Part shown: positions 6,147 to 20,529 of the stretch, one piece after another | Numbering within the stretch: position 1 is the first letter of the stretch | Layout of the letters: every line of letters begins with the position of its first letter | DNA from: Cryobacterium soli | GTDB taxonomy: Bacteria; Actinomycetota; Actinomycetes; Actinomycetales; Microbacteriaceae | DNA: 64,000 nt | Direction: 5' to 3' | Assembly (NCBI RefSeq): GCF_003611035.1 | Contig: NZ_CP030033.1 | Location: forward strand, 3,906,001 to 3,970,000 | Notes under the pieces: generated by a model | Database searches by the model: none | What the model was told of the DNA's origin: nothing | What the model saw: only the letters and a program-made list of their open reading frames with translations | Made by a program: the position numbers and the translations under genes

Positions 6147-6211
6147 GGGACAGAACTGTATTGCATCCAGGCCCCTCACATCACGTCCGGGGCGGGACCG
6201 GCCGTCCATTA

Positions 6212-6230: not shown

Positions 6231-6259
6231 GCGCCCATCGGGCCGGTTGGGAGCACCAC

Positions 6260-6949
6260 GTGTCAGGTACCGTTCTTCTCGTCCACGGGGCAAACCACCG
6301 GGGTTCAAGCTGGCGTGCGCTGCAGGGCGCACTGGCCGGGCGCGGCATCCACTCGGTGACGGTCGACCTGCCCAGCGCGTCGCCCGCGCTGGCTGATCTG
6401 CATGCCGATGCTCAGGTCATCCGCGGGGCGGTGGCCCGGCACAGCGCCACCGTCGTGGTCTGTCACTCCTACGGCGGGATGCCCACCACCGAGGCGTTGG
6501 TGGGCAACACCAGCGTGGAGCGCATCGTGTACCTCACGGCCTGGATGCCGCGCCCGGGCATGTCGCTGCTCGACCTCTCCGGCAACGGGGGCGACGACCC
6601 TGAGGGCGAGGATCTCTGGCAGGTGTCGGCCGACGGCGCCACCATCGGCGCGCCGGACCCGACGACCCTGTTCTACAACCGCTGCACGCCGGATGTGGCG
6701 GAGGCCGCCATGCGTGATCTCACCCCGCAGTCGTTCGCCTCGTTCACGCAGGGGGTGACTGGCGCGGCGTGGCACACCATCCCCGCCACCTACATAGTCT
6801 GCGAAGACGACAACGCCATCGCGCCGGACCTGCAGCGGGCGATGGCCGCGCAGGCCGACGAGGTGTTCGTGCTCGACAGCGACCACTCGCCGTTCCTGTC
6901 GTACCCGGAGCGCACGGCAGCGCTGGTCGCCACTCTCGTCGATCACTGA
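6260..6949 (+). CDS. Alpha/beta fold hydrolase (esterase/amidase-like)
   Basis: This 229-residue cytoplasmic alpha/beta hydrolase has the oxyanion-hole segment LVHGANHRGSSW near residue 7, a nucleophile elbow CHSYGG (Ser near residue 71), and the acid and histidine in the C-terminal half (CEDDNAIAP and DSDHSPFL). The layout resembles the small methylesterase/hydroxynitrile-lyase-like branch. The start is taken as GTG at 6260, with GGGAG seven nt upstream and the first beta strand directly after it. The same CTATCG operator stands before this gene and before the amidohydrolase/transporter pair, so it may hydrolyse an ester or amide of the compound that operon degrades. The substrate is unknown. 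Confidence 0.85.
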   Translation: MSGTVLLVHGANHRGSSWRALQGALAGRGIHSVTVDLPSASPALADLHADAQVIRGAVARHSATVVVCHSYGGMPTTEALVGNTSVERIVYLTAWMPRPGMSLLDLSGNGGDDPEGEDLWQVSADGATIGAPDPTTLFYNRCTPDVAEAAMRDLTPQSFASFTQGVTGAAWHTIPATYIVCEDDNAIAPDLQRAMAAQADEVFVLDSDHSPFLSYPERTAALVATLVDH

Positions 6950-7398: not shown

Positions 7399-8151
7399 TC
7401 ACGCCGGGTAGGCCGCGATGGCGCGCTGGGCGATGTCGAAGATGGTCGGGAAGGACGATTCGGGCACTCGCACCAGGCGCAGGCAGCCGCGGGCGATCGA
7501 GTCCGCGTAGGCGTGTCGGGCCGCGCCGCCGCCCCAGTCGCGCTGCACGAGGATGCTCTCGACCAGGCCGAAGACCAGGTGCAGGTCGTCGGTCACGGCC
7601 TGCGGGTCGGTGCCGGCAGCCGCGGCGGCCGTGGCGAAGCGGAGGTAGTGCTCCTGCAGGGCGGCCTGCATGGTGTCGCCGCGCTCGGCCTTGGCGTCGG
7701 GCAGACGGTAGAGCACGTGCAGGTTCCAGCGGTCCTGCAGGATCACGTCGAGGTCGTACTTCGCCAGCGCGTAGAGCTTGGTGGGCGCGTCGAGCGGCTG
7801 GGTGTCGAGCCACTCGGCGAAGTGCACCGCCGGCTCGACGGTTCCGGTGAGCAGGGCGCCCAGGATGCTGCCCTTGTCGGCGAAGTGGTAGTACAGCGAG
7901 GCCTGGCGGATGCCCACCACCGACGCGATCTGCCGGGTGGTGGTGTCGGTGTAGCCCTGCTCGGTGAACAGCGTGGCGGCGGCCTCGAGGATCTCGTCGC
8001 GGGTGCTCAGGCCCGCGCGCTGCTTGCCCTCGGCGCGGGGGCGGCCGGCGGTGCGCTTGGGCGTGGTCGGCGCATCCGTCTGGGCATCCGTCGGGGAGGT
8101 CGCCGTGGTGCCAGAGGTGCCACTCGCGTCGGTGTCGGGTGTCGAGGTCAT
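7399..8151 (-). CDS. TetR family regulator, probable controller of the nitrogen-scavenging cluster
   Basis: This 250-residue TetR-type regulator has a low-complexity Thr/Ser/Asp-rich N-terminus of about 35 residues, then KRTAGRPRAEGK and the helix-turn-helix (about residues 52-95: TTRQIASVVGIRQASLYYHF, then ADKGSILGALL). The remainder is the helical ligand domain. Its ATG overlaps the stop of the amidohydrolase gene by 4 bp (8148-8151), so both are one transcriptional unit divergent from the ABC transporter operon. The CTATCG motifs at 6212-6224, 9434-9443 and 9505-9514 are its likely binding sites. The inducer is presumably the transported compound or a breakdown product. Confidence 0.9.
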   Translation of the reverse strand: MTSTPDTDASGTSGTTATSPTDAQTDAPTTPKRTAGRPRAEGKQRAGLSTRDEILEAAATLFTEQGYTDTTTRQIASVVGIRQASLYYHFADKGSILGALLTGTVEPAVHFAEWLDTQPLDAPTKLYALAKYDLDVILQDRWNLHVLYRLPDAKAERGDTMQAALQEHYLRFATAAAAAGTDPQAVTDDLHLVFGLVESILVQRDWGGGAARHAYADSIARGCLRLVRVPESSFPTIFDIAQRAIAAYPA

Positions 8152-9413
8152 GCGCTCTGGGGCTCCGTGCTCTCGAGGGGGAGGGTGGACGAGTGGATGC
8201 GGCCGGACTGCACGATCAGCCGCATCGCGCCGGGTTCGGCCAGGGCGTTGAGCTGGGCAAGCGGATCGACCAGAGTTGCCACCAGATCGGCCCTTTTACC
8301 CGGCTCGATGGTGCCGACTTCGTCCAGTATGCCGCTCATGCGGGCGGCGGACGACGTGCCGGCCAGGATCGCCTGCATCGGGGTGAGGCCGAACTCCACG
8401 AGCAGGGCTAGTTCGCGCAGATTGGCGCCGTGCTCCACGATGCCGGCGTCGGTGCCGAGCGCCACATTCACGCCGGCACGGATGGCGGCGCCGACCCGTT
8501 CACGGGCGTTCTGCACCGTGCGGCGACGTTTGGCCACGGTCCAAGGGGCTGCGGTGGGGGAGACCGGGCGGGTGAGCGTGGACAGGGTGGGTACCAGGAA
8601 GGTGCCCTGCTCGCCCATCAGCTCGATGGTGGCGTCGTCGATGAGGTAGCCGTGCTCGATGCTGCGCACGCCCGCGCGCACGGCCGCGGCGATGCCCGCG
8701 GTGCCGATGGAGTGCGCGGCGACGCCGATGTGGCCGTGCCGGGCGGCCTCCTCCACGACGGCACGGAGCTCGGCCTCGCTCAGGCCGCCGCCCTCCGGGT
8801 TGCTGCGTGGGCTGCCCATGCCGCCCGTGGCGGCCACCTTGATCCAGTCGGCGCCCTCGCGGATCACCTCGCGGGTGAGCCGCACGAAGTCGGCGGGGGA
8901 GTCGCCCACCACTCCGGCGCCGGGGCCGGTGTCCAGCGGGGTGCCGCCCACCGTGCGCCAGTCGCCGTGCCCGCCGCTGACGCTGAGGATGCGGATGGCC
9001 AGTTGCAGCGCCGGCCCGACGATGACGCCGTCGGCGAGGGCATCGCGAAAGCCGGAGTCCGCGCCGGCCAGGTCTCGGGCGCTGGTGACTCCGGCGTCGA
9101 GCGTGGCGCGCAGGGCCGGCACCGCCCGCAGGGTCTTGGCGCTCTCCGGTTCGGTGATGCTCGTGAGGGTGTCGGTGGCGGGGGAGGTGCTCACGTGCAC
9201 GTGGCAGTCGAAGAAGCCCGGCAGCACGGTGTGGCCGGTGCCGTCGAGAACCGTGAGGGCATCCCGGTTGATCACCTGAGGCAGCGGCAGGGAGCCGGTG
9301 GGGGAGATCGACGCGAAGACCCCGTCGGTGACGAGCACATCGAGGGCGGGCCGCGGGGCGCCGCCGAGGCCGTCGATCACGGTGACATTGCGCAGCAGCA
9401 GGCTCGGGGTCAT
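8148..9413 (-). CDS. Metal-dependent amidohydrolase
   Basis: This 421-residue amidohydrolase of the imidazolonepropionase/prolidase-like branch of the superfamily would hydrolyse a C-N bond in a cyclic or linear amide. The metal-binding residues are visible: HxH in FDCHVHV (His71, His73), the bridging-lysine strand DWIKVAATGG, histidines in GVAAHSIG and SIEHGYLID, and the catalytic Asp in LGTDAG. N- and C-terminal beta-sandwich strands (VTVIDGLGG; IEPGKRADLV) complete the fold. It is co-transcribed with the TetR gene and shares a regulatory region with the operon for ABC import and ureido/guanidino breakdown. It may therefore open or trim the imported substrate, but its specificity is not readable. 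Confidence 0.9.
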   Translation of the reverse strand: MTPSLLLRNVTVIDGLGGAPRPALDVLVTDGVFASISPTGSLPLPQVINRDALTVLDGTGHTVLPGFFDCHVHVSTSPATDTLTSITEPESAKTLRAVPALRATLDAGVTSARDLAGADSGFRDALADGVIVGPALQLAIRILSVSGGHGDWRTVGGTPLDTGPGAGVVGDSPADFVRLTREVIREGADWIKVAATGGMGSPRSNPEGGGLSEAELRAVVEEAARHGHIGVAAHSIGTAGIAAAVRAGVRSIEHGYLIDDATIELMGEQGTFLVPTLSTLTRPVSPTAAPWTVAKRRRTVQNARERVGAAIRAGVNVALGTDAGIVEHGANLRELALLVEFGLTPMQAILAGTSSAARMSGILDEVGTIEPGKRADLVATLVDPLAQLNALAEPGAMRLIVQSGRIHSSTLPLESTEPQSA

Positions 9414-9430: not shown

Positions 9431-9520
9431 TACCTATCGCTGATCGAATTTACGTGATCGAAACATGCGGCAATCAGGCCGAAACAGGGTCGGGATAGTT
9501 TTTGTCAGCGATAGATATTT
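9431..9520. promoter_or_regulatory. Inverted pair of CTATCGCTGA operator sites in the divergent promoter
   Basis: CTATCGCTGA (9434-9443) and its reverse complement TCAGCGATAG (9505-9514) face each other in the 148-bp spacer between the amidohydrolase and the binding-protein genes. Outside the 10-bp match the left copy reads TAC and the right TAT, so the consensus is TAYCTATCGCTGA. The right copy continues into CGATAGATATTT, identical to the site at 6219-6230. A site near each start suits joint repression by the adjacent TetR protein. Confidence 0.65.
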
Positions 9521-9561: not shown

Positions 9562-11178
9562 ATGTCCCCAACTCCCCTCCACCGCCCCGTGCGGTCCGCC
9601 TTCTCCCGCCCCCGCACATCCGTTCTGCTCACCGGCCTCGCCGCCGTCACCGCGATCGCGCTCGCCGGCTGCTCCAGCTCCAGCTCGACCGACAGCTTCG
9701 GCTCCGACGCATCCGACAGCCTCACCGTCGTGATCACCCAGACCTACACCACCCCGCCCGACCCCGACACGAACTACGACGGCCCGGGCCTGAACATCAT
9801 CGAGAGCACCTACGAGGGGCTCGTCGCCTACCAGGACGGCTCGGACACCGCCGAGATCGTGCCCGAACTCGCCACCGACTGGACTCTCTCCGACGACGGC
9901 CTCACCTACACCTTCACCCTGCGCGAGGGCGTCACCTTCCACGACGGCACCGAATTCACCGCCGAGGCCGTGGTGGCTTCGTTCGAGCGTCGCACCGCCG
10001 TCGACGGCGGCCCGGCCTACATGGTCGGCGACGTCACGGCCGTCACCCCGGTCGACGACTACACGGTCGACGTGACCCTCGCCGCACCGAACTCGGCGTT
10101 CGTGGACTACCTCGCCTCGCCGTTCGGCCTCAAGATGGTCAGCCCCACCGTGCTCACCGAGGAGGCCGGCGACGACTTCGCGCAGACCTACCTCACCACG
10201 CACGACGCCGGCACCGGCCCCTACGAACTGACGGATGTCGAAACCGGCGTCTCATACACGCTCACCGCCGCCGACGACTATTGGGGCGACACCCCCGAGT
10301 TCAGCACCGTGAACATCGAGATCAGCGACAACGCCTCGGCCGCCCAGCTGCGCCTGGAGCGCGGCGAGATCGACGCGATCCTCGGCAACCTGAACAAGAC
10401 CACCTTCGCGTCGCTGGCGAGCAACGACGAGCTCGACGCGTCGACGTTCCCCAACTTCACCACCCAGATGGTCTACGTGAACCCGGCCTCCGCCATCTTC
10501 ACCACGCTGGAGGACCGCACCGCACTGTTCGCGGGCCTCGACACCGAGACCATCATCGACGCGTCGATGGGCGAGCTCGAGGTGCCCACCAGTCAGCTGT
10601 TCCCGGCCGGCATGCTCGACGCCGCAGCGGATGACCAGGGTGTCACCTATGACCCCGCGGCCCTGCAGGGCATCGTGGATTCCGGGATCGCCGCAGGAAA
10701 GACCATCCGCATCGGCTACCCGGCGTCGAGCTCCGACGCCGCGGCCGTGGCCCAGGAGATGGGCGCCACGCTCAGCTCCGCCGGCCTGCCCGCCGAGGCC
10801 GTGTCGCTCGGCAGCGGATCGGTGTACTCCCTGACCGACGACCTGGCCGCAGCCCCCGACCTGGTGATCATGGCCGCGTTCCCCGACGCCGGCCACGTGG
10901 ACGCCTGGGCCCGCATCATCTACACGCCCACCGGTGGCCTCGACGTGCTGGGCGCCGAGGTGCCCGGCCTGAACGACGACCTCGACGCGGCCCTGGCCAC
11001 GGAGGGCAACGACGCGTACGCCGCCATCGCCCAGAAGATCATCGCGGCCAAGTACTGGTTCTCGATCGGCTCGCTGCAGACCACGACCATCGCCCGCACC
11101 GGTCTGACCGGCCTGGACGACGCCCGCAACCTGCTCGAGTACAACGTGCTGCACTTCGCAGCGCTCGGCAACGAGTAG
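9562..11178 (+). CDS. ABC transporter substrate-binding lipoprotein, family 5 (Dpp/Opp type)
   Basis: This 538-residue extracellular solute-binding protein of family 5 has a signal peptide ending in the lipobox LAGC (about residues 33-36) and a Ser-rich linker. It then carries family features such as YEGLVAYQDGSD, the segment LREGVTFHDGTEFTAEAVV and the later TGPYELTDVE. Members bind peptides, nickel, opines or other small polar compounds for import. It is the first gene of the operon: fused ATPase, two permeases, then catabolic enzymes. By context it should deliver a nitrogen-rich substrate such as a guanidino or ureido compound. The start ATG follows GAGAGG at a good distance. Confidence 0.92.
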   Translation: MSPTPLHRPVRSAFSRPRTSVLLTGLAAVTAIALAGCSSSSSTDSFGSDASDSLTVVITQTYTTPPDPDTNYDGPGLNIIESTYEGLVAYQDGSDTAEIVPELATDWTLSDDGLTYTFTLREGVTFHDGTEFTAEAVVASFERRTAVDGGPAYMVGDVTAVTPVDDYTVDVTLAAPNSAFVDYLASPFGLKMVSPTVLTEEAGDDFAQTYLTTHDAGTGPYELTDVETGVSYTLTAADDYWGDTPEFSTVNIEISDNASAAQLRLERGEIDAILGNLNKTTFASLASNDELDASTFPNFTTQMVYVNPASAIFTTLEDRTALFAGLDTETIIDASMGELEVPTSQLFPAGMLDAAADDQGVTYDPAALQGIVDSGIAAGKTIRIGYPASSSDAAAVAQEMGATLSSAGLPAEAVSLGSGSVYSLTDDLAAAPDLVIMAAFPDAGHVDAWARIIYTPTGGLDVLGAEVPGLNDDLDAALATEGNDAYAAIAQKIIAAKYWFSIGSLQTTTIARTGLTGLDDARNLLEYNVLHFAALGNE

Positions 11179-11257
11179 TAGCACCCACCCGGCCGGCGGC
11201 GGCTCTCCCGAGCCCCGCCGGCCACCCCTCTCCAGCCCCCGAACCCCCGAGGCGAAC

Positions 11258-13042
11258 ATGACCTTCCCCACTGCACAGACCGGAGCGGCCCAGCCCGGCA
11301 CAGCACAGCCCGGCTCCGGCGCCGACGCGTCCGACGCATCCTCCCCCGTCGCCCGCGTTCGCGACCTGCGCATCACCCTGCACCGTGAGGGCGCGGCCAT
11401 CGAGGCCGTGCGCGGCGTGAGCTTCGACGTGATGCCCGGCGAGATCCTCGGCCTGGTCGGCGAATCCGGCTCCGGCAAGAGCGTGCTGGGCCTGAGCATG
11501 ATGGGGCTGCTGCCCGACTACGCCAAGCCGAAGGTCACCGGCTCGATCCAGATTCAGGGCACCGACATCGTGGGCACCACCGCCGAAGCCGACCGGCTCG
11601 TGCGCAAGGAACACATCGGCGCCGTCTTCCAGGACCCGATGACGTCCCTGGATCCCACCATGACCATCGGGCACCAGCTCGCCGAGGTCGCCCGCGACAA
11701 GGCCCATGTGCTCGCGCTGCTGGCGGATGTGGGCATCCCCGACCCGGCCACCCGGCTCGGCGCCTACCCGCACCAGCTCAGTGGGGGCCTCCGCCAACGG
11801 GTGATGATCGCCCTCGCCCTGGCCCGCAACCCGTCGCTGATCATCGCCGACGAACCCACCACGGCGCTCGACGTGACGGTGCAGGCGCAGATCCTCGACC
11901 TGCTGCTCACCCTGCGCGACGAACACGGCTGCAGCGTCATCTTCGTCACCCACGACCTCGGCGTGGCCGCGCAGATCAGCGACCGCATCGCCGTGATGTA
12001 CCGCGGCGAGATCGTCGAATCCGGCACGGTCACCAGCGTGCTCGGCACGCCCCAGCACGACTACACCAAGGGTCTGTTGGCCTCCCGCATCGACCTGAAC
12101 ACCCCCACCGACCGGCCCATCGTGAGCGCCCACGGCGCCGGCGCGGCCGACCACCTGCCCGATCGCTGGCCCGCCGTGATCCCCGGCGGCCCGGCCGTGA
12201 CCATCACGGATGTGCGCCGCAGCTTCGTCAGCGGCCCGCTCTGGAAGCGCCGCAGCCTCGACGCCGTCCGAGGCGTCAGCCTCACCATCGCGCAGGGTGA
12301 GTCGGTCGCACTCGTGGGGGAGAGCGGCTGCGGCAAGTCCACCCTGCTGCGCATGGTCGCAGGCCTCGACACCCCCACCTCCGGCACCGTCACCGTAGCC
12401 GGCACGACCCGCCCGCAGATGGTGTTCCAGGACGCAGGGTCCTCGCTCACCCCGTGGCTGAGCGTGGGCGAACTGCTCCGCGAACGCCTCACCGCCACCA
12501 CCCCGGGCCTCACCCGCACCCAGGTGCGCGACCGCATCGAGGAGGCCCTTGAGCGCGTGGGCCTGCCCGCCGACGTGGCCCGGGTGCGCGGCGACAGCCT
12601 CTCCGGCGGCCAGCGCCAGCGCGTGGCCATCGCCCGCGCCGTGATCGTGCCGCCCGCCGTGCTGCTCTGCGACGAACCCACCAGCGCCCTGGACGTGTCC
12701 CTGGCCGCCACCGTGCTCAACCTGCTCGGTCGGCTGCGCCGGGAACTGAACATGTCGCTGCTCTTCGTCACCCACGACCTCGCCGCCGCCCGCGTCATCT
12801 CCGACCGCATCGCCGTGATGAACCGCGGCGAGATCGTGGAGCTCGGCGCCGCGTCCGAGGTGTGCGCCAACCCGATCAAGCCGTACACCCGGTCGCTGCT
12901 CGCGGCGATTCCCGGCCAGCACCTGCGAGTGGCGCCGCAACGGCCGCCCACCAGCACCATCCCCACGGTCACGACTGCCGACACCTTCGACATCGACCTG
13001 GATCTCGACCTCGACCTCGACCTCGGAGAGGCCCGCGCATGA
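11258..13042 (+). CDS. Fused double ABC ATPase (DppD-DppF-like)
   Basis: This 594-residue cytoplasmic ATPase carries two complete nucleotide-binding domains in one chain. Domain 1 has Walker A GESGSGKS, signature LSGGLRQR and Walker B LIIADEP. Domain 2 (from about residue 305) has Walker A GESGCGKS, signature LSGGQRQR and Walker B VLLCDEP. The peptide transporter family usually has two separate ATPases; fused versions are common in Actinobacteria. The C-terminus is odd: a run of alternating Asp-Leu (DIDLDLDLDLDLGEARA) encoded by GACCTC-like hexamers, probably from slippage. Its stop overlaps the next start (ATGA, 13039-13042), so it is translationally coupled to the permease. Confidence 0.93.
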   Translation: MTFPTAQTGAAQPGTAQPGSGADASDASSPVARVRDLRITLHREGAAIEAVRGVSFDVMPGEILGLVGESGSGKSVLGLSMMGLLPDYAKPKVTGSIQIQGTDIVGTTAEADRLVRKEHIGAVFQDPMTSLDPTMTIGHQLAEVARDKAHVLALLADVGIPDPATRLGAYPHQLSGGLRQRVMIALALARNPSLIIADEPTTALDVTVQAQILDLLLTLRDEHGCSVIFVTHDLGVAAQISDRIAVMYRGEIVESGTVTSVLGTPQHDYTKGLLASRIDLNTPTDRPIVSAHGAGAADHLPDRWPAVIPGGPAVTITDVRRSFVSGPLWKRRSLDAVRGVSLTIAQGESVALVGESGCGKSTLLRMVAGLDTPTSGTVTVAGTTRPQMVFQDAGSSLTPWLSVGELLRERLTATTPGLTRTQVRDRIEEALERVGLPADVARVRGDSLSGGQRQRVAIARAVIVPPAVLLCDEPTSALDVSLAATVLNLLGRLRRELNMSLLFVTHDLAAARVISDRIAVMNRGEIVELGAASEVCANPIKPYTRSLLAAIPGQHLRVAPQRPPTSTIPTVTTADTFDIDLDLDLDLDLGEARA

Positions 13043-13920
13043 GCGTTTTCGCCCCCACGCCCACCCGAGCCCTGCCCGGCCGTGGCGCCCGCAAGTTCCA
13101 GCGGGTCACCGCGCTGCGGCACCGCTCCACGATCGTGAACCTCATCGGCCTCACCGGCCTGGTGCTGCTGGTGCTCCTGGCCCTGCTCGCCCCGGTGCTC
13201 GCGCCCTACAGCCCGATCCTGCGCGCCGGTACCCCATTCCAGCCGCCGCTCAGCCCCGGCTTCCTGCTCGGCACGGATGCCCTCGGCTACGACATCTTCT
13301 CCCGTCTGCTCTTCGGCCTGCGCGCCAGCATCACCGCCGCGGCCATCGTGATCGCCTCCGGCGTGATCATCGGCGGCCTCGTCGGTGTCGTCGCCGGCGC
13401 CCTCGGCGGCTGGGCGGACGGCCTGCTCATGCGGGTCACCGACCTGTTCCTCGCCCTGCCGGGCATCCTCATCGCCATGGTCGTGGCTGCGGCCCTCGGC
13501 GCCAGCTTCACCAGCTCGCTGATCGGCGTGGCCGTGGTGTGGTGGCCGATGTACGCCCGGCTGGTGCGCGGCGAGGTGCGCTCCTGGGCGGCCCGGCCGC
13601 ACCTGGAGGCCGCGACCCTGGCCGGCGTGGGCTGGAGCCGCCGAGTGGCCCGGCACCTGCTGCCCGGCGTCACCTCCACAGTGGTGATCGCGGCGAGCCT
13701 GGACGTGGGCGGCCTCGTGGTGGCCATGTCGGGCCTGTCCTTCATCGGCCTCTCCTCGCCGGCCCCGGCGCCCGAGCTCGGCGCCATGGCCGCCCAGGGC
13801 ATGCAGTACCTGCTGCAGTTCTGGTGGGTGCCCGTGGTGCCGGGACTTGCCGTGATGCTGCTGGCCCTCTGCGCCAACCTCGCCGGCGACGGCATCCGCG
13901 ACCTGCTGGCCCGCCGATGA
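13039..13920 (+). CDS. ABC transporter permease (DppC type)
   Basis: This 293-residue inner-membrane permease has a cytoplasmic N-terminus and a first helix at about residues 36-57. The DppC/OppC signature GTDALGYDIFSRLLFG sits near residues 80-95, and an EAA-like loop (EAATLAGVGWSRRVARHLLP) contacts the ATPase. About six transmembrane helices are visible. The ATG overlaps the stop of the fused ATPase. With the second permease encoded from 13973 it forms the translocation channel of the importer. The RxLFG and EAA motifs make the family assignment firm; the substrate is given only by context. Confidence 0.92.
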   Translation: MSVFAPTPTRALPGRGARKFQRVTALRHRSTIVNLIGLTGLVLLVLLALLAPVLAPYSPILRAGTPFQPPLSPGFLLGTDALGYDIFSRLLFGLRASITAAAIVIASGVIIGGLVGVVAGALGGWADGLLMRVTDLFLALPGILIAMVVAAALGASFTSSLIGVAVVWWPMYARLVRGEVRSWAARPHLEAATLAGVGWSRRVARHLLPGVTSTVVIAASLDVGGLVVAMSGLSFIGLSSPAPAPELGAMAAQGMQYLLQFWWVPVVPGLAVMLLALCANLAGDGIRDLLARR

Positions 13921-13972
13921 CCCCCGCATCCGCCCCCGCCCTTCACTCACCAACTTCAGAACGGATGCCGAC

Positions 13973-14971
13973 ATGCTGATGTTCATCCTTAAGCGCATCG
14001 TCGCCATGGCCGGCGTGCTCCTGGCCCTCACCGTGGCCCTGTTCACCCTGCAGGAGCTCAGCGGGGTCGACCCGGCCAAGGCCTACGTGGGCGCCAACGC
14101 CTCGGCCGAGGCCCTCGAACGGGCCCGCGAACGCCTGGGCCTCGACCAGAGCGCCATCGTGCGGTACTTCGACTACCTCGGCGGCCTGCTGCACGGCGAC
14201 CTGCAGAACTCGCTGCGCACCCGCACCCCGGTCGCCGACGGCCTGGCCGCGGCGTTCCCGGCCACGCTCGAACTGGCGCTGTGGACCCTGGGCTTCGCGC
14301 TCATTCTCGGCGCGTTCTTCGCCCTGCTCACCGTGGTGCGCTGGAAGGGCGCCGCCGTGGTGCGGTTCGTGCTGCTCTCCGGAGCCGCAGCGCCCACCTT
14401 CCTGCTCGCCATGGTGGGGCTGCTCGTGTTCTACGGGTCGCTCGGCCTTATCCCCGCCGGCGGCCGGTCCAGCTTCAGCGGCGGCTCATCCAGCCCCACC
14501 GGCCTGCTCGTGCTCGACGCGCTGCTGGCCGGGCGCATGGACGTGGCCGGCGACGCAGTGTGGCATCTGCTCTTGCCCGCCGCCTGCGCTGCGATCAGCC
14601 CGGCGGTGGCCATCGGCCGGGTGCTCGTGGACGGCCTCAAGGTCAACCTCGGCTCCGACCACGCCCGCACCGCCCGCTCGGCCGGCATGAAGGAGTCCGC
14701 CGTGCTCGTACGGCACGCGCTGCGCAACTCCCTCGGCGCCACCCTCTCGATGATCGGCATCCAGACCGGGCTGCTGCTCGGCGGGCTCGTGGTGGTGGAG
14801 AAGATCACCGGCTGGCCGGGCCTCGGCAGCTACCTGGAGAAGTCGGTCAACGTGAGCGACTTCCCCGGCATCGCCGGCGTCGCCCTGCTGCTCGGCATCA
14901 CCTACGTGCTGCTGAACACCATCGTCGACGTGCTGCAGGTCGTGGCCGACCGGCGTATCTCCCTCACCTGA
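13973..14971 (+). CDS. ABC transporter permease (DppB type)
   Basis: This 332-residue inner-membrane permease of the DppB/OppB branch starts with the canonical helix LKRIVAMAGVLLALTVALF. A periplasmic loop follows with LGLDQSAIVRYFDYLGGLLHGDL, then further helices and an EAA loop (ARTARSAGMKESAVLVRHAL). The C-terminal KITGWPGLGSYL stretch is typical of the branch. The order is reversed (DppC before DppB) compared with the E. coli dpp operon. The gene starts 52 bp after the DppC-type gene. It pairs with that permease and the fused ATPase. Confidence 0.92.
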   Translation: MLMFILKRIVAMAGVLLALTVALFTLQELSGVDPAKAYVGANASAEALERARERLGLDQSAIVRYFDYLGGLLHGDLQNSLRTRTPVADGLAAAFPATLELALWTLGFALILGAFFALLTVVRWKGAAVVRFVLLSGAAAPTFLLAMVGLLVFYGSLGLIPAGGRSSFSGGSSSPTGLLVLDALLAGRMDVAGDAVWHLLLPAACAAISPAVAIGRVLVDGLKVNLGSDHARTARSAGMKESAVLVRHALRNSLGATLSMIGIQTGLLLGGLVVVEKITGWPGLGSYLEKSVNVSDFPGIAGVALLLGITYVLLNTIVDVLQVVADRRISLT

Positions 14972-15092
14972 CCCGCGGATGCGGCCGGCCGGGTCGCATC
15001 CGCCCCCAACCTTCACCCCCGACCGGCGCTGCTGCCGGCTTGTTCGAACTGCCCCGGCGGGCCCTGCGCCCGCCACCACGAAAGGAACCACC

Positions 15093-15749
15093 ATGACTGC
15101 CGCCGAGACTCTAGACATCGTCGGAAACACCGTGCTCATCGTCGTCGACATCCAGGGCGGCGAGATTCCCCGCGAGGACTCCCGCACCGAGATCCCCTAC
15201 ATGGGCGGCCGCACCGAACGGGCCCCGCGGGTGCGTGAAGTGATCCGGCACTGCCGGGAGAAGGGCATCCCGGTGGTGTTCATCCAGGAGGTGCACAAGC
15301 CGTCGCTCGTCGACATCGGCCGTGAGCTCGACGGCTCCGAGGGCCCGCACTGCCTCGAGGGCTGGGAAGAGACCGAGCTGGCCCCGGGCATCGACCCGCG
15401 CCCCGAGGAATTCCTGATCAAGAAGCGCCGCTACTCCGCGTTCTTCGGCACCGAGCTGGAGATCGTGCTCAAGGGCTACAAGGCCGAGACCCTGCTGCTC
15501 GTCGGCGGCCTCACCGACGTCTGCGTGCACTACACCGCGGTGGATGCGCACCAGCACGACTACCGCTTCCGGGTGCTCACCGACTGCGTCGGCGGCTCCA
15601 CCCAGCAGGCGCACGACAACGCCCTGCAGGCCATGCACTACCTGCAGCGCGACGCCCTTGTCACCGCCGCGCAGACCAACGCCTGGCTGGCCACCCTGCC
15701 CACCCCGGAGCCGGTGAACCCCGTGCACGAACTGGTGCGCAACGCGTGA
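15093..15749 (+). CDS. Isochorismatase-like cysteine hydrolase (guanylurea/biuret hydrolase candidate)
   Basis: This 218-residue cytoplasmic hydrolase of the isochorismatase/nicotinamidase superfamily has the D-K-C triad visible as Asp19 (IVVDIQGG), Lys111 (KKRRYSAFFGT) and Cys144 (GGLTDVCVHYTAVDAHQHDY). Members in this kind of setting release ammonia from biuret, triuret, guanylurea or N-carbamoyl compounds. The start ATG follows GAAAGGA at 7 nt. Its stop overlaps the next gene (GTGA), so it is coupled to the two DUF1989 proteins and allophanate hydrolase. With those partners and no carboxylase, hydrolysis of guanylurea to carboxyguanidine plus ammonia is the best-fitting role. Biuret hydrolase is the main alternative, but it would leave the DUF1989 pair unexplained. 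Confidence 0.8.
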   Translation: MTAAETLDIVGNTVLIVVDIQGGEIPREDSRTEIPYMGGRTERAPRVREVIRHCREKGIPVVFIQEVHKPSLVDIGRELDGSEGPHCLEGWEETELAPGIDPRPEEFLIKKRRYSAFFGTELEIVLKGYKAETLLLVGGLTDVCVHYTAVDAHQHDYRFRVLTDCVGGSTQQAHDNALQAMHYLQRDALVTAAQTNAWLATLPTPEPVNPVHELVRNA

Positions 15750-16624
15750 GCGAGACCACTGAGCTGACCTCTGCTACCGCGGCAACGGCAGTCTCGGCGT
15801 CGACGGCCTCACCCGCCGGCGCCCGGGCGCACGCCCGAGCGCAGGGCGGCACGCGGGTCACGACCATGCCCACCGTTCCGGCCGCCACGGCCGGCGGCTG
15901 GCCCGCCGGGCTCGCCGAGGACGACCGCTTCGTCGCCGAGACGGTTGCGGGCGGCAACTACACGACCCTCGCCGTGCAACGCGGCACGATCGTGGAGTTC
16001 ACCGACCTCGACGGCGACGCCTGCGCGCACCTGGCGATCTTCAACCAGGCGCAACTCGACGAACGCCTCAACGTCGCCGACACCGTGAAGATCCAGTGGC
16101 AGGCCTACCTCGGCGAGGGTGCCATGCTGCTCTCCGACCGCGGCCGGGTGCTCGCCACCATCGTGTCGGACAACTCCGGCACCCACGACACCTTCGCGGG
16201 CACCTCCACCCGCGCGGTGAACGAGGCCCGCTACGGCGACGGCTCCGCGCACAGCGGCACCCCCGCCGGCCGCGAACTGTTGATCCTCGGCGCCGCCAAG
16301 CACGGCCTCACCCCGCGCGACCTGCCGCCTACCGTCGCCCTGTTCCAGGGCGTGCGGGTGGCGGAGGACGGCGCGCTGGTGTTCACCGGCTCCACCGGCC
16401 CCGGCGCCGTCGTGCGGCTGCGATTCGAGCTGCCCGCCGTGCTGCTCGTGGCCAATGTGCCCTCCCCGGTGGACCCGCGACCGGAGTACACCAGCACGCC
16501 GGTGCGCATCCGGGCCTGGCGTGGCGAGGCCGCGAACCTCCAGTCGCCCGAGGCCACCGCAACCCCCGAGGCCGCCCGCGCCTTCGGCAACACCATTGAC
16601 TACGCCAGAACGAGAGGACTGTGA
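15746..16624 (+). CDS. DUF1989 protein, urea-carboxylase-associated type 1 (carboxyguanidine deiminase subunit candidate)
   Basis: This 292-residue DUF1989 protein begins with an Ala/Thr-rich N-terminus of about 55 residues that is not part of the domain. The conserved core includes FTDLDGDACAHLAIFN, ERLNVADTVKIQWQAYL, LSDRGRVLATIVSD, HDTFAGTSTRAVNEARYG and a C-terminal SPVDPRPEYTSTPVRI. In guanidine-degrading bacteria two such paralogues form the carboxyguanidine deiminase that makes allophanate. The GTG start overlaps the preceding stop (GTGA), and the 3' end overlaps the next start (16621-16624). It most resembles the UAAP1 branch; which of CgdA or CgdB it corresponds to I cannot say. Confidence 0.83.
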   Translation: MSETTELTSATAATAVSASTASPAGARAHARAQGGTRVTTMPTVPAATAGGWPAGLAEDDRFVAETVAGGNYTTLAVQRGTIVEFTDLDGDACAHLAIFNQAQLDERLNVADTVKIQWQAYLGEGAMLLSDRGRVLATIVSDNSGTHDTFAGTSTRAVNEARYGDGSAHSGTPAGRELLILGAAKHGLTPRDLPPTVALFQGVRVAEDGALVFTGSTGPGAVVRLRFELPAVLLVANVPSPVDPRPEYTSTPVRIRAWRGEAANLQSPEATATPEAARAFGNTIDYARTRGL

Positions 16625-17331
16625 TGGGCCGCACCGACAGCACGCAGACCGGCAGCGACAGCAGCACCGGCCCGGTCGCCGGCACGACGCCGGCCGCCGT
16701 GCCCGAGCGGCTCGCCGGCCGCGAGATCGTGCTCGACGAGGTCGTGGGCCGCCGCGGCCCGTGGTCCCACGTCGTGGCCGCCGGCGACGAGCTCACCATC
16801 GTCGACCTCGAGGGCAACCAGGCCGTCGACTTCCTGCTCTACGACTCCGCAGACACCGCCGTGCGTTACAGCGCGCCCGACACCATCAGCGCCCAGGGCA
16901 ACGTCTACCTCAGCCAGGGGTCGGTGCTGCGCGCCAACACCGGCGACGCCCTGATGACCCTCGTGCACGACGAGGTCGGCCGGCACGACACCATCGGCGG
17001 CGCCTGCAGCAAGGAGTCCAACTCCCTGCGGTACGGCCACCACACCGTGCACCAGCACGCCTGCGTCGAGAACTTCCTCGCCGAGGGCGCCCTGTGGGGA
17101 CTGGGCAAACGCGACCTGGTCAGCAACATCAACTTCTACATGAACGTGCCCGTCGAGGCGGATGGCGCGCTCGGCATCGTCGACGGCCTCTCGGCCCCCG
17201 GGCTCTCGCTCACACTTCGCGCCGAACGTGACGTGCTCGTGCTGGTGTCGAACTGCCCGCAGATCAACAACCCCTGCAACGGGTTCAACCCCACCCCGGT
17301 GCGGATGCTCGTGACCCGGGCCGCCCGATGA
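16621..17331 (+). CDS. DUF1989 protein, urea-carboxylase-associated type 2 (carboxyguanidine deiminase subunit candidate)
   Basis: This 236-residue second DUF1989 paralogue is of the UAAP2 branch. Its hallmarks are RGPWSHVVAAGDELTIVDLE, GNQAVDFLLYDSADTAVRYS, RHDTIGGACSKESNSLRYG, GLGKRDLVSNINFYMNVPV and the Cys-rich NCPQINNPCNGFNPTPVR near the end. Conserved Cys and His residues suggest a metal site. It overlaps both neighbours by 4 bp (16621-16624 and 17328-17331), so stoichiometric production with its paralogue and with allophanate hydrolase is likely. Expected role: deimination of carboxyguanidine to allophanate and ammonia together with the protein at 15746. This follows from the family's known function, not from direct evidence. 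Confidence 0.85.
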   Translation: MMGRTDSTQTGSDSSTGPVAGTTPAAVPERLAGREIVLDEVVGRRGPWSHVVAAGDELTIVDLEGNQAVDFLLYDSADTAVRYSAPDTISAQGNVYLSQGSVLRANTGDALMTLVHDEVGRHDTIGGACSKESNSLRYGHHTVHQHACVENFLAEGALWGLGKRDLVSNINFYMNVPVEADGALGIVDGLSAPGLSLTLRAERDVLVLVSNCPQINNPCNGFNPTPVRMLVTRAAR

Positions 17332-19253
17332 CCCCGGCCGACCTCCCCACGCCCGGCACGCCGACCGGTCGCGTCGCCGAGGTCTACGCGGCGATCGCCG
17401 CCGCGGACCGGCCCGAGGTGTGGATCACCCTTCGCGCCGAGGCCGAGGTGCAGGCCGAGGTCGACGAGGTGCTCGCCCGGGCCGCCATCGCGTGGGAACC
17501 GCTGCCCCTGGCCGGGCTGCTGTTCGCCGTGAAGGACAACATCGACGTGGCGGGCCTGCCCACCACAGCGGCCTGCCCCGGCTTCGCCTACCCCGCCAAA
17601 GAGGACGCCACGGCCGTGGCCCGGCTGCGCGCCGCCGGCGCCGTGGTGCTCGGCAAGACCAACCTCGACCAGTTCGCCACCGGCCTGGTCGGCACCCGCA
17701 GCCCCTACGGCGCGGTGCGGAGCGTCCTGCGGCCCGACCGTATCTCCGGCGGCTCGTCCTCCGGGTCGGCTGTGGCCGTGGCCCTCGGCCTGGTGGACTT
17801 CGCCCTCGGCACCGACACCGCCGGCTCTGGCCGGGTGCCCGCCGCCCTGCAGGGGCTCGTCGGGGTCAAGGGCACCGTGGGTCTGGTGCCCACCACGGGC
17901 GTCGTACCGGCCTGCCGCAGCCTCGACTGCGTCACCGCGTTCGCCCGCGACCTCGACACCGCCGAGTCGGTGCTGAGGGTGATGGCCGGACCGGATGGCC
18001 GTGACGCCCTCGCGGCCCTGCCGCCGGAATCCGCCCCGCTCGCCGCCCCGGCGGCCCCCGTGATCGCCGTGCCCCGCCCCGACGACCTCACCGCGCTCGC
18101 GCCGCTCTGGCGGAGCGCCTTCGACGCCCACCTGGCCCGGTTGCGTGACGCCGGCGTCACCCTGGTAGAGATGGACATCTCCCCGTTCCTCGAGGCCGCC
18201 GCGTTGCTGTACAACGGCGCCTTCGTGGCCGAGCGTTACGCCGCCGTCGGTGCGGCGATCGATTCAGCACCTGCGGGGCTCGACCCTGTCGTTGCCGGCA
18301 TCGTCACCGCCGCCGGGCACCTGCCCGCGCACCGGTACGCGGCCGACCTGGTGCGCTTGGCCGAGCTGAAGCTCGCCGGGGAACTCGCCTTCGCCGGCGC
18401 CGACGCCATGCTGCTGCCCACCACCACGCACCACCCCACCCTGGCCGAGGTGGCGGCGGAGCCCATCGCCGTGAACTCCCGGCTAGGCACCTTCACCAAC
18501 TTCGCCAATCTGTTCGGCTACCCCGCGTACGCGGTGCCGATCGATGCGGGCGCGGCAGACGAGAACGTGGGCGTGCAGGTGCTCGCCCGCCCCTTCGCCG
18601 ACGCCGTCGCCCGTGACGTGGCCGCCCTGCTGCTGCGTGTCGAATCGCGAGACGTCGTTTCGCGAGAGCGGTCAAACGGTCACCTGGGCACTCGCGAAGC
18701 AACCATTTCACCGCTTTCGCGGGATGGGGTTTTGCGAGAGCGGTCTAACGGTCACCTGGGTGCTCGCGAAGCAACCATTTCACCGCTTTCGCGGGAGGTG
18801 ATCTCGCGGGAGGACGTGGGGGAGCGGAGGGTCGCGGGAAGCCAGCTGCGCTTGGACCTCGATGGGGGAGTGCACCTGCTCGTGGTGGGTGCGCACCTGT
18901 CCGGGCTGCCGCTGCACGACCGGATGCGTCGGCACGGCGCACTGTTCGCCGACGACGTGCGCACCGCGCCCGGCTACACCCTCGTGGCCCTCGGCGACCC
19001 GCTGAACCGGCCCGGCATGATCCGCACGCCCGACTCCGACTCCAGCGTGCTCGGCGAACTGTGGCGGGTACCCGAGACCGCCCTCTCGGCACTGCTGCTC
19101 GAGGCCGCGGCCCCGCTCGGCCTCGGCCGGGTCACCCTGGCCGACGGCCGCGAGGTGGTGGGCTACCTCTGTGAGGCCACCGCCGCTGCGGGCAAGCCCG
19201 TGGTCGCGGACGGCGACTGGCGTGCACACGTGAACGGAGCCGATCGTGCCTGA
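17328..19253 (+). CDS. atzF: Allophanate hydrolase with in-frame palindromic repeat insertion
   Basis: This 641-residue allophanate hydrolase cleaves allophanate; the C-terminal domain decarboxylates the N-carboxycarbamate product, giving ammonia and CO2. The amidase-signature domain shows the Ser-cisSer-Lys triad as Lys69 (AVKDNID), Ser143 (GGSSSGS) and Ser167 (GTDTAGSG), with the same spacing as in Pseudomonas AtzF. The C-terminal gamma-glutamylcyclotransferase-like domain runs from about residue 505 (VAGSQLRLDL). The linker at about residues 440-495 contains two 24-residue repeats (RERSNGHLGTREATISPLSR type) encoded by a palindromic DNA element, so the protein is longer than usual. It overlaps the DUF1989 and MFS genes. 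Confidence 0.93.
   Translation: MTPADLPTPGTPTGRVAEVYAAIAAADRPEVWITLRAEAEVQAEVDEVLARAAIAWEPLPLAGLLFAVKDNIDVAGLPTTAACPGFAYPAKEDATAVARLRAAGAVVLGKTNLDQFATGLVGTRSPYGAVRSVLRPDRISGGSSSGSAVAVALGLVDFALGTDTAGSGRVPAALQGLVGVKGTVGLVPTTGVVPACRSLDCVTAFARDLDTAESVLRVMAGPDGRDALAALPPESAPLAAPAAPVIAVPRPDDLTALAPLWRSAFDAHLARLRDAGVTLVEMDISPFLEAAALLYNGAFVAERYAAVGAAIDSAPAGLDPVVAGIVTAAGHLPAHRYAADLVRLAELKLAGELAFAGADAMLLPTTTHHPTLAEVAAEPIAVNSRLGTFTNFANLFGYPAYAVPIDAGAADENVGVQVLARPFADAVARDVAALLLRVESRDVVSRERSNGHLGTREATISPLSRDGVLRERSNGHLGAREATISPLSREVISREDVGERRVAGSQLRLDLDGGVHLLVVGAHLSGLPLHDRMRRHGALFADDVRTAPGYTLVALGDPLNRPGMIRTPDSDSSVLGELWRVPETALSALLLEAAAPLGLGRVTLADGREVVGYLCEATAAAGKPVVADGDWRAHVNGADRA
18658..18796 (+). repeat. 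Two palindromic repeat units (72-bp period) inside atzF
   Basis: Copy 1 (18658-18724) and copy 2 (18730-18796) are near identical over 67 bp. Each starts with CGCGAGAGCGGT-like and ends with ACCGCTTTCGCG, an inverted pair with one mismatch. The period of 72 bp keeps the reading frame, so the element is translated as two 24-residue repeats in the interdomain linker. It is unlike the surrounding codon usage and was probably inserted, then duplicated. Confidence 0.85.
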
Positions 19254-20529
19254 CGTCGGGCGGGTGGGGTCACCCCGCACCGACGCGCTGCCGGTGCCCG
19301 GACTCGAGCCCGTGTCGTCCACCGTCTCGGCGGCAGCCGGCGGCGCGTCCGTGCCGCGGCTCAGCCCTCGCACCAGGCCCCGGCTCTGGCCGCTGGCGCT
19401 GGGCACGTTCGCGATCGGGTTCGGCTCGAACATCGTGACGGGGCTGCTGCCCACCATGTCCGCCGACCTGGGCGTGACCGTGCCGGAGATCGGCCGGCTC
19501 GTGAGCGTGTACGGCTTCACCTACGCCGTGACCACGCCACTCGTGGCGCTGGCCGGCAACAGGCTGCCCCGGCGGCTGCTGATGCTCACCGCACTGGCGC
19601 TGTTCGCGTTGGCCTGCGTGGGCACCGCGTTCGCCGAGGACTACGACACCGTGGCGCTGCTGCGAGGCCTGGCCGCGTTCGCCGCCGGCGGCTTCACGCC
19701 CACGGCCACGGTGCTGGCGTCCCGGCTAGCGGCTCCGGGGGAGCGCGGCCGGGCCCTGGCGACGGTGTTCGGTGGTCTCACCACGGCGACCGTCGTGGCC
19801 GCACCGGTGGGCAATCTGCTCGGCCCAACGCTCGGATACCGCGGCGTCTACGCGCTCACCGCGGGCCTGGCGGTGCTGGCCTTCGTGGCGGTGCTCACCC
19901 TCGTGCCGAGGCCGTCGCGCGAGTCGCTCGAGGCCGCGGTCGTTGCCCGGCCCGGCCGGGGCTGGCCGTCACCGATCGTGCTCGTGGTGCTGCTGGTCTC
20001 GATGCTCGAGACCGCTGCCGCGCTCATGGTGCAGACCTACGCATCCCCGTTGCTCACGGCGATGTCGGGCGTGGACGGCATCGGCCTCAGCGTGCTGCTG
20101 CTCTGCTACGGTGCGGCCGGGGTGCTCGGCAACATCGTGGGTGGCCGGCTGGCCGACCGTTGGGGTGCCTCGCGCACCCTCTGGCTGAGCTTCGCCGTGT
20201 GCGGGGCTGCGCTGGTCCTGCTCCCGATTGCGAGCCGGTCGATCGTGGGCGCCGGCCTGGTGTTCGCTGTGTGGGGGTTCGCCGCCTGGGCGGCAAACTC
20301 GCCGCTGCAGGGGATCCTACTCGGCCTGGCCGGACGCCACGGGCAGCTCGTCGTGGCGCTGAACTCCTCGGTGATCGCGCTGGGCACGGGCCTGGGCGCC
20401 CTGGCCGGTGGCGCCATCATCGCCGGCGGCGGCATGCTCGTGATCGCATATTGGGGCGCGGGAGTCATGGCCGTGGTGGTAGCCCTGGTGCTCGCGGTGT
20501 CGGCGCGCGGGCGGGTGGCCGCGTTCTGA
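19246..20529 (+). CDS. MFS transporter (DHA1-like)
   Basis: This 427-residue major facilitator has about 12 transmembrane helices after a 45-residue cytoplasmic N-terminus. The motif-A-like loop is reduced in the first half (GNRLPRRLLM) and clear in the second (GGRLADRWGASRTL). It belongs to the drug:H+ antiporter/arabinose-efflux-like group. The GTG start at 19246 overlaps the atzF end by 8 bp and has GGAG upstream, so it is the last gene of the nitrogen-scavenging operon. It may export a product or the toxic parent compound, or act as a second importer. The sequence does not say which. Confidence 0.88.
   Translation: MPDVGRVGSPRTDALPVPGLEPVSSTVSAAAGGASVPRLSPRTRPRLWPLALGTFAIGFGSNIVTGLLPTMSADLGVTVPEIGRLVSVYGFTYAVTTPLVALAGNRLPRRLLMLTALALFALACVGTAFAEDYDTVALLRGLAAFAAGGFTPTATVLASRLAAPGERGRALATVFGGLTTATVVAAPVGNLLGPTLGYRGVYALTAGLAVLAFVAVLTLVPRPSRESLEAAVVARPGRGWPSPIVLVVLLVSMLETAAALMVQTYASPLLTAMSGVDGIGLSVLLLCYGAAGVLGNIVGGRLADRWGASRTLWLSFAVCGAALVLLPIASRSIVGAGLVFAVWGFAAWAANSPLQGILLGLAGRHGQLVVALNSSVIALGTGLGALAGGAIIAGGGMLVIAYWGAGVMAVVVALVLAVSARGRVAAF

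Follow-up and report, generated by a model that had tools for sequence, protein, structure and literature searches.

Genes for carboxyguanidine deiminase are usually taken as a mark of guanidine carboxylation, and the question raised by the present locus is where carboxyguanidine may come from when such genes stand in an operon without a carboxylase. The window, which is the whole 64,000-nucleotide stretch of the Cryobacterium soli genome analysed here, contains the following features.

5187..6332, minus strand, proline dehydrogenase
6068..6949, plus strand, esterase-type alpha/beta hydrolase (Abhydrolase_6 99.6 bits; candidate start GTG at 6260)
6213..6227, plus strand, operator-like site differing from the site at 9503 at 3 positions
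7399..8151, minus strand, TetR-family regulator, adjoining the amidohydrolase
8148..9413, minus strand, amidohydrolase AmiH of the prolidase / Arg-carboxypeptidase / ochratoxinase type
9431..9445, minus strand, operator-like site 1 of the divergent promoter
9503..9517, plus strand, operator-like site 2 of the divergent promoter
9562..11178, plus strand, SBP5, family-5 solute-binding protein of a Dpp/Opp/Nik-type importer (ORF and profile matches)
11258..13042, plus strand, fused two-domain ATPase of the DppD-DppF type (Opp/Dpp; ORF and profile matches)
13039..13920, plus strand, permease of the DppC/NikC type (ORF and profile matches)
13973..14971, plus strand, permease of the DppB/NikB type (ORF and profile matches)
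15093..15749, plus strand, IHL, isochorismatase-like cysteine hydrolase (D19/K111/C144) of a subfamily separate from BiuH/GuuH/TrtA
15746..16624, plus strand, UAAP1, DUF1989 protein of the carboxyguanidine deiminase subunit type (TIGR03425 267.6 bits, cut-off 206)
16621..17331, plus strand, UAAP2, DUF1989 protein of the carboxyguanidine deiminase subunit type (TIGR03424 321 bits, cut-off 285)
17328..19253, plus strand, AtzF, allophanate hydrolase with K69/S143/S167 (TIGR02713 594 bits, cut-off 511)
19246..20529, plus strand, MFS transporter (Cmx/AraJ-like exporter families, scores under their cut-offs)

The nine genes from SBP5 to the MFS transporter, with the families assigned in the initial annotation, were all recovered on the plus strand at 9562-20529 by open reading frames and profile searches, and the catalytic residues named there for IHL and AtzF were found. 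The run had been described as unbroken and overlapping; five neighbouring pairs do overlap by 4-8 bases, and there are gaps between the remaining pairs. The reading frame of IHL is open from 14979, ahead of its start at 15093, and the TetR and amidohydrolase genes are divergent from the nine-gene run.

The carboxylase had been reported as missing, and this is true of the operon, since neither open reading frames nor profile searches gave a biotin-dependent guanidine or urea carboxylase within 9562-20529. It is false for the genome, in which a complete urea/guanidine carboxylase operon, including a UAAP pair and an AtzF of its own, is present at C1:2204576-2208157, with no match to the operator motif of the window. 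In trees, the two separate UAAP sets of this genome fall into different clades: UAAP1 and UAAP2 of the window each form a clade of their own with those of Cellulomonas (99/99 and 98/96, respectively), apart from the carboxylase-linked copies. Because of this second operon the cell could handle guanidine by the usual route, which counts against a carboxylase bypass.

For the operator search we used TGTCAGCGATAGATA, copied from the site at 9503 itself, and with up to 3 mismatches it gave 3 matches in the 64 kb (6213, 9431 and 9503) against 0.21 expected, a number reached by 1 of 100 shuffles. The sites at 9431 and 9503 lie between the amidohydrolase and SBP genes, and that at 6213 is flanked by the alpha/beta hydrolase gene, with 6260 as a candidate start, and by the opposite-strand proline dehydrogenase gene, in agreement with the shared operator motif proposed earlier. 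A similar operator-like site also precedes an alpha/beta hydrolase homologue (60%) in Agreia (L017), and sites of GTC-N3-GAC type were recognized by eye at the amidohydrolase/SBP promoter of Agreia, Cellulomonas and Streptomyces. Proline dehydrogenase was rejected as a member of the set, having 0 homologues in the compared loci against one (in Agreia) for the neighbouring alpha/beta hydrolase.

Homologues of the operon TetR adjoin the amidohydrolase in three loci (L017, L020 and L097), and homologues with 35-42% identity adjoin guanidine operons in L049, L105, L108, L112, L113 and L121. Among the 17 loci with a located UAAP1 outside a window-type operon, 6 have such a homologue and the other 11, including the own carboxylase operon (L005), have none at E<=1e-12; another TetR of the window gave no homologue beside those guanidine operons. 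Guanidine riboswitch control is common for the guanidine carboxylase pathway, and it is not universal. There was no Rfam match to a guanidine riboswitch at the gathering threshold in the window or in L005, and riboswitch control of the operon was rejected.

In a tree with one GuuH, the protein starting at 15093 lies outside the group of BiuH, GuuH and TrtA (group support 98/95), and its membership in the GuuH/BiuH clade was therefore rejected. The plasmid-type GuuH, to which it is 28% identical, was taken as L115:10475-11110 and named by gene context (a cytidine-deaminase-type neighbour in a metformin-degrading strain), not by accession, and the tree rows of Rhizobium TrtA and E. coli RutB were named from best PDB matches. 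Since IHL does not group with these enzymes, guanylurea is no more than one candidate substrate. An AlphaFold model of IHL (mean pLDDT 78.6) had a structural-genomics isochorismatase-like protein as its best fold match, followed at similar E-values by BiuH, isochorismatase, maleamate amidase, carbamoylsarcosine amidase and others, and because these values are similar the fold search does not decide the substrate. We found no description of an isochorismatase-like subfamily with the signature GRELDG-x-E-x-x-HC.

With a probability of about 0.5, we read the locus as a TetR-controlled nitrogen-scavenging operon whose hydrolase yields carboxyguanidine directly. The Dpp-type ABC importer would take up a guanidine-containing amide or conjugate, which the amidohydrolase and the alpha/beta hydrolase, judging from the shared operator sites, may trim. 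IHL would then cut a terminal amide by means of Cys144, Asp19 and Lys111, freeing ammonia and leaving carboxyguanidine, and its simplest substrate would probably be guanylurea or an N-carbamoylguanidine unit. From the known functions of their families, UAAP1 and UAAP2 would deiminate carboxyguanidine to allophanate and AtzF would convert allophanate to ammonia and CO2, so that biotin- and ATP-dependent carboxylation would be bypassed. The initial annotation had called the hydrolytic route known from Pseudomonas, which is inexact: in the portions of PMC9800807, PMC11647477 and PMC11399263 that describe GuuH, it yields guanidine, which is then carboxylated. Because the route published there uses a carboxylase, a pathway that employs carboxyguanidine without one would be a novelty.

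The operon is conserved in Cellulomonas, being alike from SBP or amidohydrolase to MFS in three genomes (L019-L021) and in part in a fourth (L018). UAAP1, UAAP2 and AtzF directly follow IHL in the three, and the contig of the fourth stops after UAAP2. Each of the four has one UAAP1 at E<=1e-50, which is the operon copy, and a search of these draft genomes at E<=1e-12 found biotin-carboxylase domains without any urea/guanidine carboxylase; in three of them it also gave a piece of about 150 bits over positions 444-756, presumably 5-oxoprolinase PxpC. Agreia has the same importer, an IHL with 91% identity and the MFS gene, which was matched in L017, L019-L021 and L049; UAAP and AtzF do not lie in between, and the UAAP pair of Agreia is 137 kb away, beside a carboxylase. 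The relatives' loci and genomes are largely draft contigs, with gene calls made mechanically by tblastn and ORF scripts.

Genome counts show a coupling of IHL with UAAP1, which is present in 6 of 13 IHL genomes versus 29 of 381 without IHL among 394 genomes of the class (p=3.5e-4) and in 5 of 5 versus 11 of 145 in the family draw (p=7e-6), these p-values being too small because related genomes are not independent. The window's own genome is included in both draws, and genomes were counted as lacking IHL when no match was found at E<=1e-50 (family) or 1e-40 (class), so that remote IHLs may remain among them. The 7 IHL genomes of the class draw without UAAP1 have IHLs of 47-60% identity. The 80 top-ranking loci out of at least 497 yielded 48 IHL genomes (49 loci, L017-L065, with L055 left out), 6 of which have no UAAP1. 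Of the other 42, 12 gave no carboxylase match at 1e-170, and removal of G581, in which a carboxylase piece lies at a contig edge beside UAAP2, left 11, the four Cellulomonas with this operon among them; the 10 carboxylase-less genomes rechecked at E<=1e-12 belong to Cellulomonas, Micromonospora, Streptomyces, Jiangella and Microbacterium. Among 40 genomes with UAAP1 and no IHL, the carboxyltransferase part was present in 39 (threshold 1e-160), and absence of the carboxylase in 10/42 versus 1/40 gives a Fisher p of 0.007, again too small for related genomes. The samples overlap, by identical coordinates, in G555=G338, G557=G260, G559=G045 and G537=G140.

These counts mean that UAAP1, UAAP2 and AtzF do occur where a carboxylase is missing, for the most part in genomes that have IHL, and they support the hydrolase, the DUF1989 pair and AtzF as a linked set needing no carboxylase. 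That the bypass is real is suggested by relatives which carry this set and in which a carboxylase could not be detected. The earlier proposal of hydrolytic carboxyguanidine formation from guanylurea is thus partly supported, by relatives and co-occurrence, as to a carboxylase-independent set, and is reduced by the tree to one candidate as to guanylurea.

The surroundings of IHL relatives also include transporters of other kinds, a nitrile hydratase or agmatinase-like genes. The nitrile hydratase was rejected as a general partner, since tblastn queries with its alpha subunit and accessory protein from Gloeocapsopsis gave none in the other compared loci, and a common neighbour theme of distant relatives was likewise rejected, no Pfam family exceeding 4 in 88 neighbouring ORFs chosen from 218 script-listed ones.

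These contexts bear on a reading, which we consider rather unlikely, in which IHL acts as amidase on a different small amide that is probably cationic, for instance 4-guanidinobutyramide or the product amide of a nitrile hydratase. UAAP and AtzF would then have been joined to it in certain lineages, as the parent compound would free guanidine-type nitrogen by a further step as well. It agrees with the six IHL genomes lacking UAAP1 and with a Streptomyces plasmid (L097), where two PTE-type hydrolases and RidA come after the same amidohydrolase, importer and IHL, and DUF1989 and allophanate hydrolase are absent among 19 annotated features. An agmatinase-family gene directly after IHL in L087 and nearby in L063 and L088, the nitrile hydratase adjoining IHL in Gloeocapsopsis (L102), and the Rieske oxygenase, GS-like ligase, amine oxidase and ALDH genes around IHL in Micromonospora (L024/L025) point the same way. 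By itself, however, this amidase would not explain why UAAP1-UAAP2-AtzF without a carboxylase occurs in IHL genomes and in 1/40 of IHL-less ones, and it leaves the shared guanidine-type TetR unexplained.

In a GuuH-like course, guanidine would arise from the IHL product by loss of CO2, carboxyguanidine would be formed again by the carboxylase encoded elsewhere in the genome, and UAAP and AtzF of the operon would be additional copies, in line with the pathway outlined in part of PMC9800807. Such a course would use the carboxylase operon that this genome contains, and a guanidine carboxylase operon also lies just upstream of the importer genes and IHL in L113 and near IHL in L049 and L064. We judge it improbable, as it would be impossible in the four Cellulomonas with the same operon if these draft genomes truly have no carboxylase, and the own genome holds two UAAP sets of different clades. 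The presence of AtzF in the operon, and the name biuret amidohydrolase given by some sources to homologues, would fit a biuret or triuret route with IHL making allophanate or carboxybiuret for AtzF. Such a route appears very improbable: the score of IHL with the NCBIfam BiuH model is 66.7 bits where the cut-off is 370, the tree puts IHL outside the BiuH/TrtA clade, Tyr114 stands in the alignment at the place of BiuH Lys145 (TrtA Lys132), the loss of which abolished BiuH activity according to the section of PMC7948467 on this residue, Gly-Glu takes the place of the Asp-Phe that follows the first catalytic motif, and the DUF1989 pair would be left without a function.

If direct formation of carboxyguanidine holds, with the hydrolase feeding the deiminase without ATP or biotin, genomes with UAAP and AtzF and no carboxylase would draw their nitrogen from a different compound, and guanylurea-like molecules would have to be available from some natural source. 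As a tentative extension, on which we would not insist, hydrolytic carboxyguanidine formation may be widespread in actinobacteria, with IHLs of the GRELDG-x-E-x-x-HC signature, a natural guanylurea-type or carbamoylguanidine substrate and a dedicated CgdAB/AtzF clade, the compound coming from Dpp-type import or from Rieske/amine-oxidase superclusters. The Cellulomonas strains offer a direct test ground, as interference from a carboxylase is not expected there.

Compared with Dpp/Opp/Nik-type ABC importers, the operon has the same full set of SBP5, two permeases and two ATPase domains, and differs in the fusion of the ATPases and in the SBP5, whose score falls far under the cut-off for each of the 11 NCBIfam models listed. 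With the guanidine carboxylase pathway (carboxylase, CgdAB and AtzF) it shares the UAAP1/UAAP2 and AtzF operon with an ABC importer and a TetR of the type found beside several guanidine operons of relatives, whereas a cysteine hydrolase is present instead of the carboxylase, which was found neither in the operon nor in the Cellulomonas relatives, the importer is of Dpp type and no riboswitch was matched in Rfam. The GuuH pathway of Pseudomonas mendocina likewise has an isochorismatase-like hydrolase upstream of CgdAB and AtzF, but GuuH is of a different clade and a guanidine carboxylase belongs to the Pseudomonas route as far as the sources above describe it. Compared with BiuH and TrtA, IHL is a separate subfamily with Tyr for Lys145 and no counterpart of BiuH Phe41, in which the isochorismatase-like fold, the Asp/Lys/Cys triad and the substrate-pocket Gln and Glu are kept.

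All nine genes that the initial annotation had placed in one unbroken run, from a family-5 binding protein (SBP) to an MFS transporter, were confirmed, together with the catalytic residues named by it, Asp19/Lys111/Cys144 in the isochorismatase-like cysteine hydrolase (IHL, 15093-15749) and Lys69/Ser143/Ser167 in the allophanate hydrolase (AtzF). The features are as follows.

9562-20529, + strand: nine-gene run of SBP5, fused two-domain ATPase, two permeases, IHL, UAAP1 and UAAP2 (DUF1989 pair, CgdAB type), AtzF and MFS transporter
8148-9413, - strand: amidohydrolase, divergent from the operon
7399-8151, - strand: TetR gene, divergent from the operon
6213, 9431 and 9503: operator-like sites, from a pattern search of the window with the site at 9503 as pattern

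The operator-like pattern was found at three sites against 0.21 expected, and only one of 100 shuffles reached as many. These putative operators link the operon to both the amidohydrolase and the alpha/beta hydrolase, in agreement with the shared motif previously proposed for the amidohydrolase, an esterase and the operon. Site 6213 has the alpha/beta hydrolase gene on one side and a proline dehydrogenase gene (5187-6332, - strand) on the other; the start region of the latter contains or adjoins the site, and this gene has no homologue in the relatives' loci compared. In Agreia (L017), an alpha/beta hydrolase homologue (60% identical) is preceded by a similar site, and GTC-N3-GAC sites were read by eye in the amidohydrolase/SBP promoter of Agreia, Cellulomonas and a Streptomyces plasmid (L097). 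The interval between the alpha/beta hydrolase and TetR genes (7021-7408) also contains about four tandem 20-base repeats (7309-7388) as well as two 86-base repeats that are 84% alike, and directly downstream of the operon a large PAS-GGDEF-EAL protein is encoded on the opposite strand (21264-24656, -).

The carboxylase had been described as missing. This holds for the window operon, but not for the genome (one contig, 4.39 Mb), in which a urea/guanidine carboxylase is encoded at C1:2204576-2208157 (1720 bits, cut-off 1304) in an operon having separate UAAP1, UAAP2 and AtzF genes, with identities to the window copies of 55, 69 and 48%, respectively. The window operon is thus a second, carboxylase-free set. 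Co-regulation of a carboxylase elsewhere, which would have spoken against the initial interpretation, was not found: the operator pattern had no match with up to three mismatches in 19 kb around the carboxylase operon. No Rfam family reached threshold there or in the window.

A scan of a genome collection provided the best 80 of at least 497 loci, and the 48 genomes of L017-L065 were searched. In three Cellulomonas loci (L019-L021) the gene order SBP-ATPase-permeases-IHL-UAAP1-UAAP2-AtzF-MFS is identical, with the amidohydrolase upstream in L019 and L020, while L021 begins at the SBP; a fourth (L018) is a 3.3 kb contig spanning permease through UAAP2. Each of these four genomes has a single UAAP1 at E<=1e-50, the operon copy, and no carboxylase match at E<=1e-170; at E<=1e-12 they gave biotin-carboxylase domains only, besides a piece of about 150 bits in three of them (positions 444-756), which we tentatively take to be the 5-oxoprolinase PxpC. 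AtzF of L019 (8549-9763) and L020 (12211-13428) matches the window AtzF in the amidase domain only, its C-terminal domain being apparently either missing or too divergent to match.

UAAP1 was present at E<=1e-50 in 42 of the 48 genomes (40 above cut-off), and in 12 of the 42 no carboxylase was matched at E<=1e-170. One of them (G581) has a carboxylase piece at a contig edge beside UAAP2 (L126); among the remaining 11, ten were rechecked and stayed negative, the eleventh being a MAG (G578). The order UAAP1-UAAP2-AtzF with no carboxylase match in between was found in L109, L121-L124 and L025. As a control, all UAAP1-positive, IHL-negative genomes of a class draw (29) and a family draw (11) were used, and the carboxyltransferase part was detected at E<=1e-160 in 39 of the 40; the sole exception (G316) is fragmented (390 contigs) and gave a biotin-carboxylase domain only. 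Comparison of the UAAP1 genomes without a detected carboxylase, 10/42 with IHL and 1/40 without, gave Fisher p=0.007, which overstates independence because the ten genomes represent five genera. Nine IHL- and UAAP1-positive genomes in the control's search had carboxylase in seven cases and lacked it in two, both Jiangella. Use of UAAP/AtzF with IHL independently of a carboxylase is likely.

IHL was associated with UAAP1 in the family draw (n=150: IHL 5 at E<=1e-50, UAAP1 16, both 5; Fisher 7e-6) and the class draw (n=394: IHL 13 at E<=1e-40, UAAP1 35, both 6; Fisher 3.5e-4), and all four class-draw genomes with IHL at least 65% identical have UAAP1, where the window genome is counted among the double positives of both draws and among these four. 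Agreia belongs to the same family, and G140 agrees with the L017 genome in all coordinates listed. For IHL and UAAP1 on a shared contig but in separate operons, the spacings calculated from coordinates, with length used to match contigs in some cases, include 7 kb in L025, 11 kb in G481, 12 kb in the L024 genome, 20 kb in the L052 genome, 26 kb in G466, 29 kb in G338 and G045, 137 kb in Agreia and about 340 kb in G143. Counted against coupling are the IHL genomes in which UAAP1 was absent: 6/48 at E<=1e-50 (G542, G547, G549, G580, G582, G584) and 7/13 of the class draw, all seven with IHL 47-60% identical. We consider functional coupling of IHL and UAAP/AtzF to be highly probable (roughly 0.85).

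Homologues of the window TetR (48-56%) adjoin the amidohydrolase or IHL in L017, L020, L097 and L029, and others (35-42%) adjoin guanidine operons in L105, L108, L112, L049 and L121 (near UAAP1) or sit between AtzF and importer in L113. Such kin occur at 6 of the 17 loci where UAAP1 was located outside a window-type operon and are absent at E<=1e-12 from 11, including the window genome's carboxylase operon; the second window TetR (4471-5190), a control, has no homologue at the same threshold in the loci compared. The subfamily beside guanidine operons (L049, L105, L108, L112, L113, L121) is a candidate guanidine-type sensor without a riboswitch.

Other contexts of IHL are diverse. The Agreia operon lacks UAAP/AtzF, with UAAP1 and a carboxylase elsewhere in the genome; the Streptomyces plasmid has two PTE-type hydrolases and RidA at that place; Curtobacterium, Rathayibacter and Promicromonospora loci have a different Opp-type importer and an amidohydrolase 42-46% identical; AtzF adjoins the importer/amidohydrolase set on the opposite strand in L034 and L036; and in L113 a UAAP1-UAAP2-carboxylase-AtzF operon is directly upstream of importer genes and IHL. 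In Micromonospora, Streptomyces, Jiangella and Microbacterium, IHL lies amid Rieske oxygenase, GS-like ligase, ALDH and PTE genes, often with a Cu amine oxidase gene, and AtzF-UAAP2-UAAP1 without carboxylase is 7 kb from IHL in L025. A Micromonospora supercluster (L024, L025, L123) combines Rieske oxygenase, reductase, GS-like ligase, Cu amine oxidase, aminotransferase V, ALDH, PTE hydrolases, IHL and carboxylase-free UAAP1/UAAP2/AtzF, with a GMC oxidoreductase type gene also matched in L123. Agmatinase-family genes are found by IHL relatives in L087 (3913-4782, directly after IHL), L063 (11372-12325) and L088 (12854-14269), the former two exceeding the TIGR01230 cut-off. On a Gloeocapsopsis (cyanobacterium) plasmid (L102 7983-10331), the IHL relative adjoins nitrile hydratase genes, which points to an amide substrate; conversion of cyanoguanidine to guanylurea may be one such case.

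The reactions of CgdAB and AtzF and cysteine-hydrolase chemistry are known for these families. In the proposed mechanism, the amidohydrolase, which has prolidase-like enzymes, Arg-carboxypeptidases and ochratoxinase among its relatives of solved structure, would act on an imported conjugate, and IHL would convert guanylurea or a carbamoylguanidine to carboxyguanidine. Guanylurea itself is a tentative choice, to which we give less than even odds.

The best PDB sequence matches of IHL (59-66 bits) were a carbamoylsarcosine-amidase-related protein, an isochorismatase-like protein and the biuret hydrolase BiuH, and its AlphaFold model did not discriminate among known amidases. In a 43-row tree with long branches among outgroups, one group (98/95) contains two BiuH structures, a guanylurea hydrolase (GuuH), Rhizobium BiuH and triuret hydrolase (TrtA, named by best PDB match) and a Pantoea protein. 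The window IHL falls outside it and belongs to another group (34 rows, 99/92) including Roseobacter and cyanobacterial plasmid members, so guanylurea is one of several candidate substrates. The GuuH row, to which IHL is 28% identical, is an isochorismatase-family protein of the KHPS2 plasmid adjoining a deaminase gene; the accessible part of PMC9800807 describes the enzyme assayed there with such a neighbour. In the group of IHL, the acidic signature GRELDG-x-E-x-x-HC is conserved with few exceptions and may be compatible with a cationic substrate.

The accessible text of PMC9800807, PMC11647477, PMC11399263, PMC11271267 and PMC12186494 describes GuuH as yielding guanidine (with ammonia), followed, where later steps are given, by guanidine carboxylase; hydrolytic formation of carboxyguanidine, earlier attributed to Pseudomonas, is at variance with this. 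A literature search based mainly on listings, which leaves absence from print unproven, gave no account of a CgdAB/AtzF operon that lacks a carboxylase. Tandem divergent IHL pairs by importer genes in L041, L049, L055 and L057 (62-65% and 52-58% identical to the window IHL) and in L023 (2521-3605; 51% and 40%) are reminiscent of TrtA plus BiuH pairs. Unlike BiuH and TrtA, in which Lys145 and Lys132, respectively, are active-site residues according to the accessible part of PMC7948467, IHL has Tyr114 at this position; since Tyr also occurs here in the GuuH row, in RutB and in every other member of the IHL group, it carries more weight as an argument against biuret than as proof of guanylurea.
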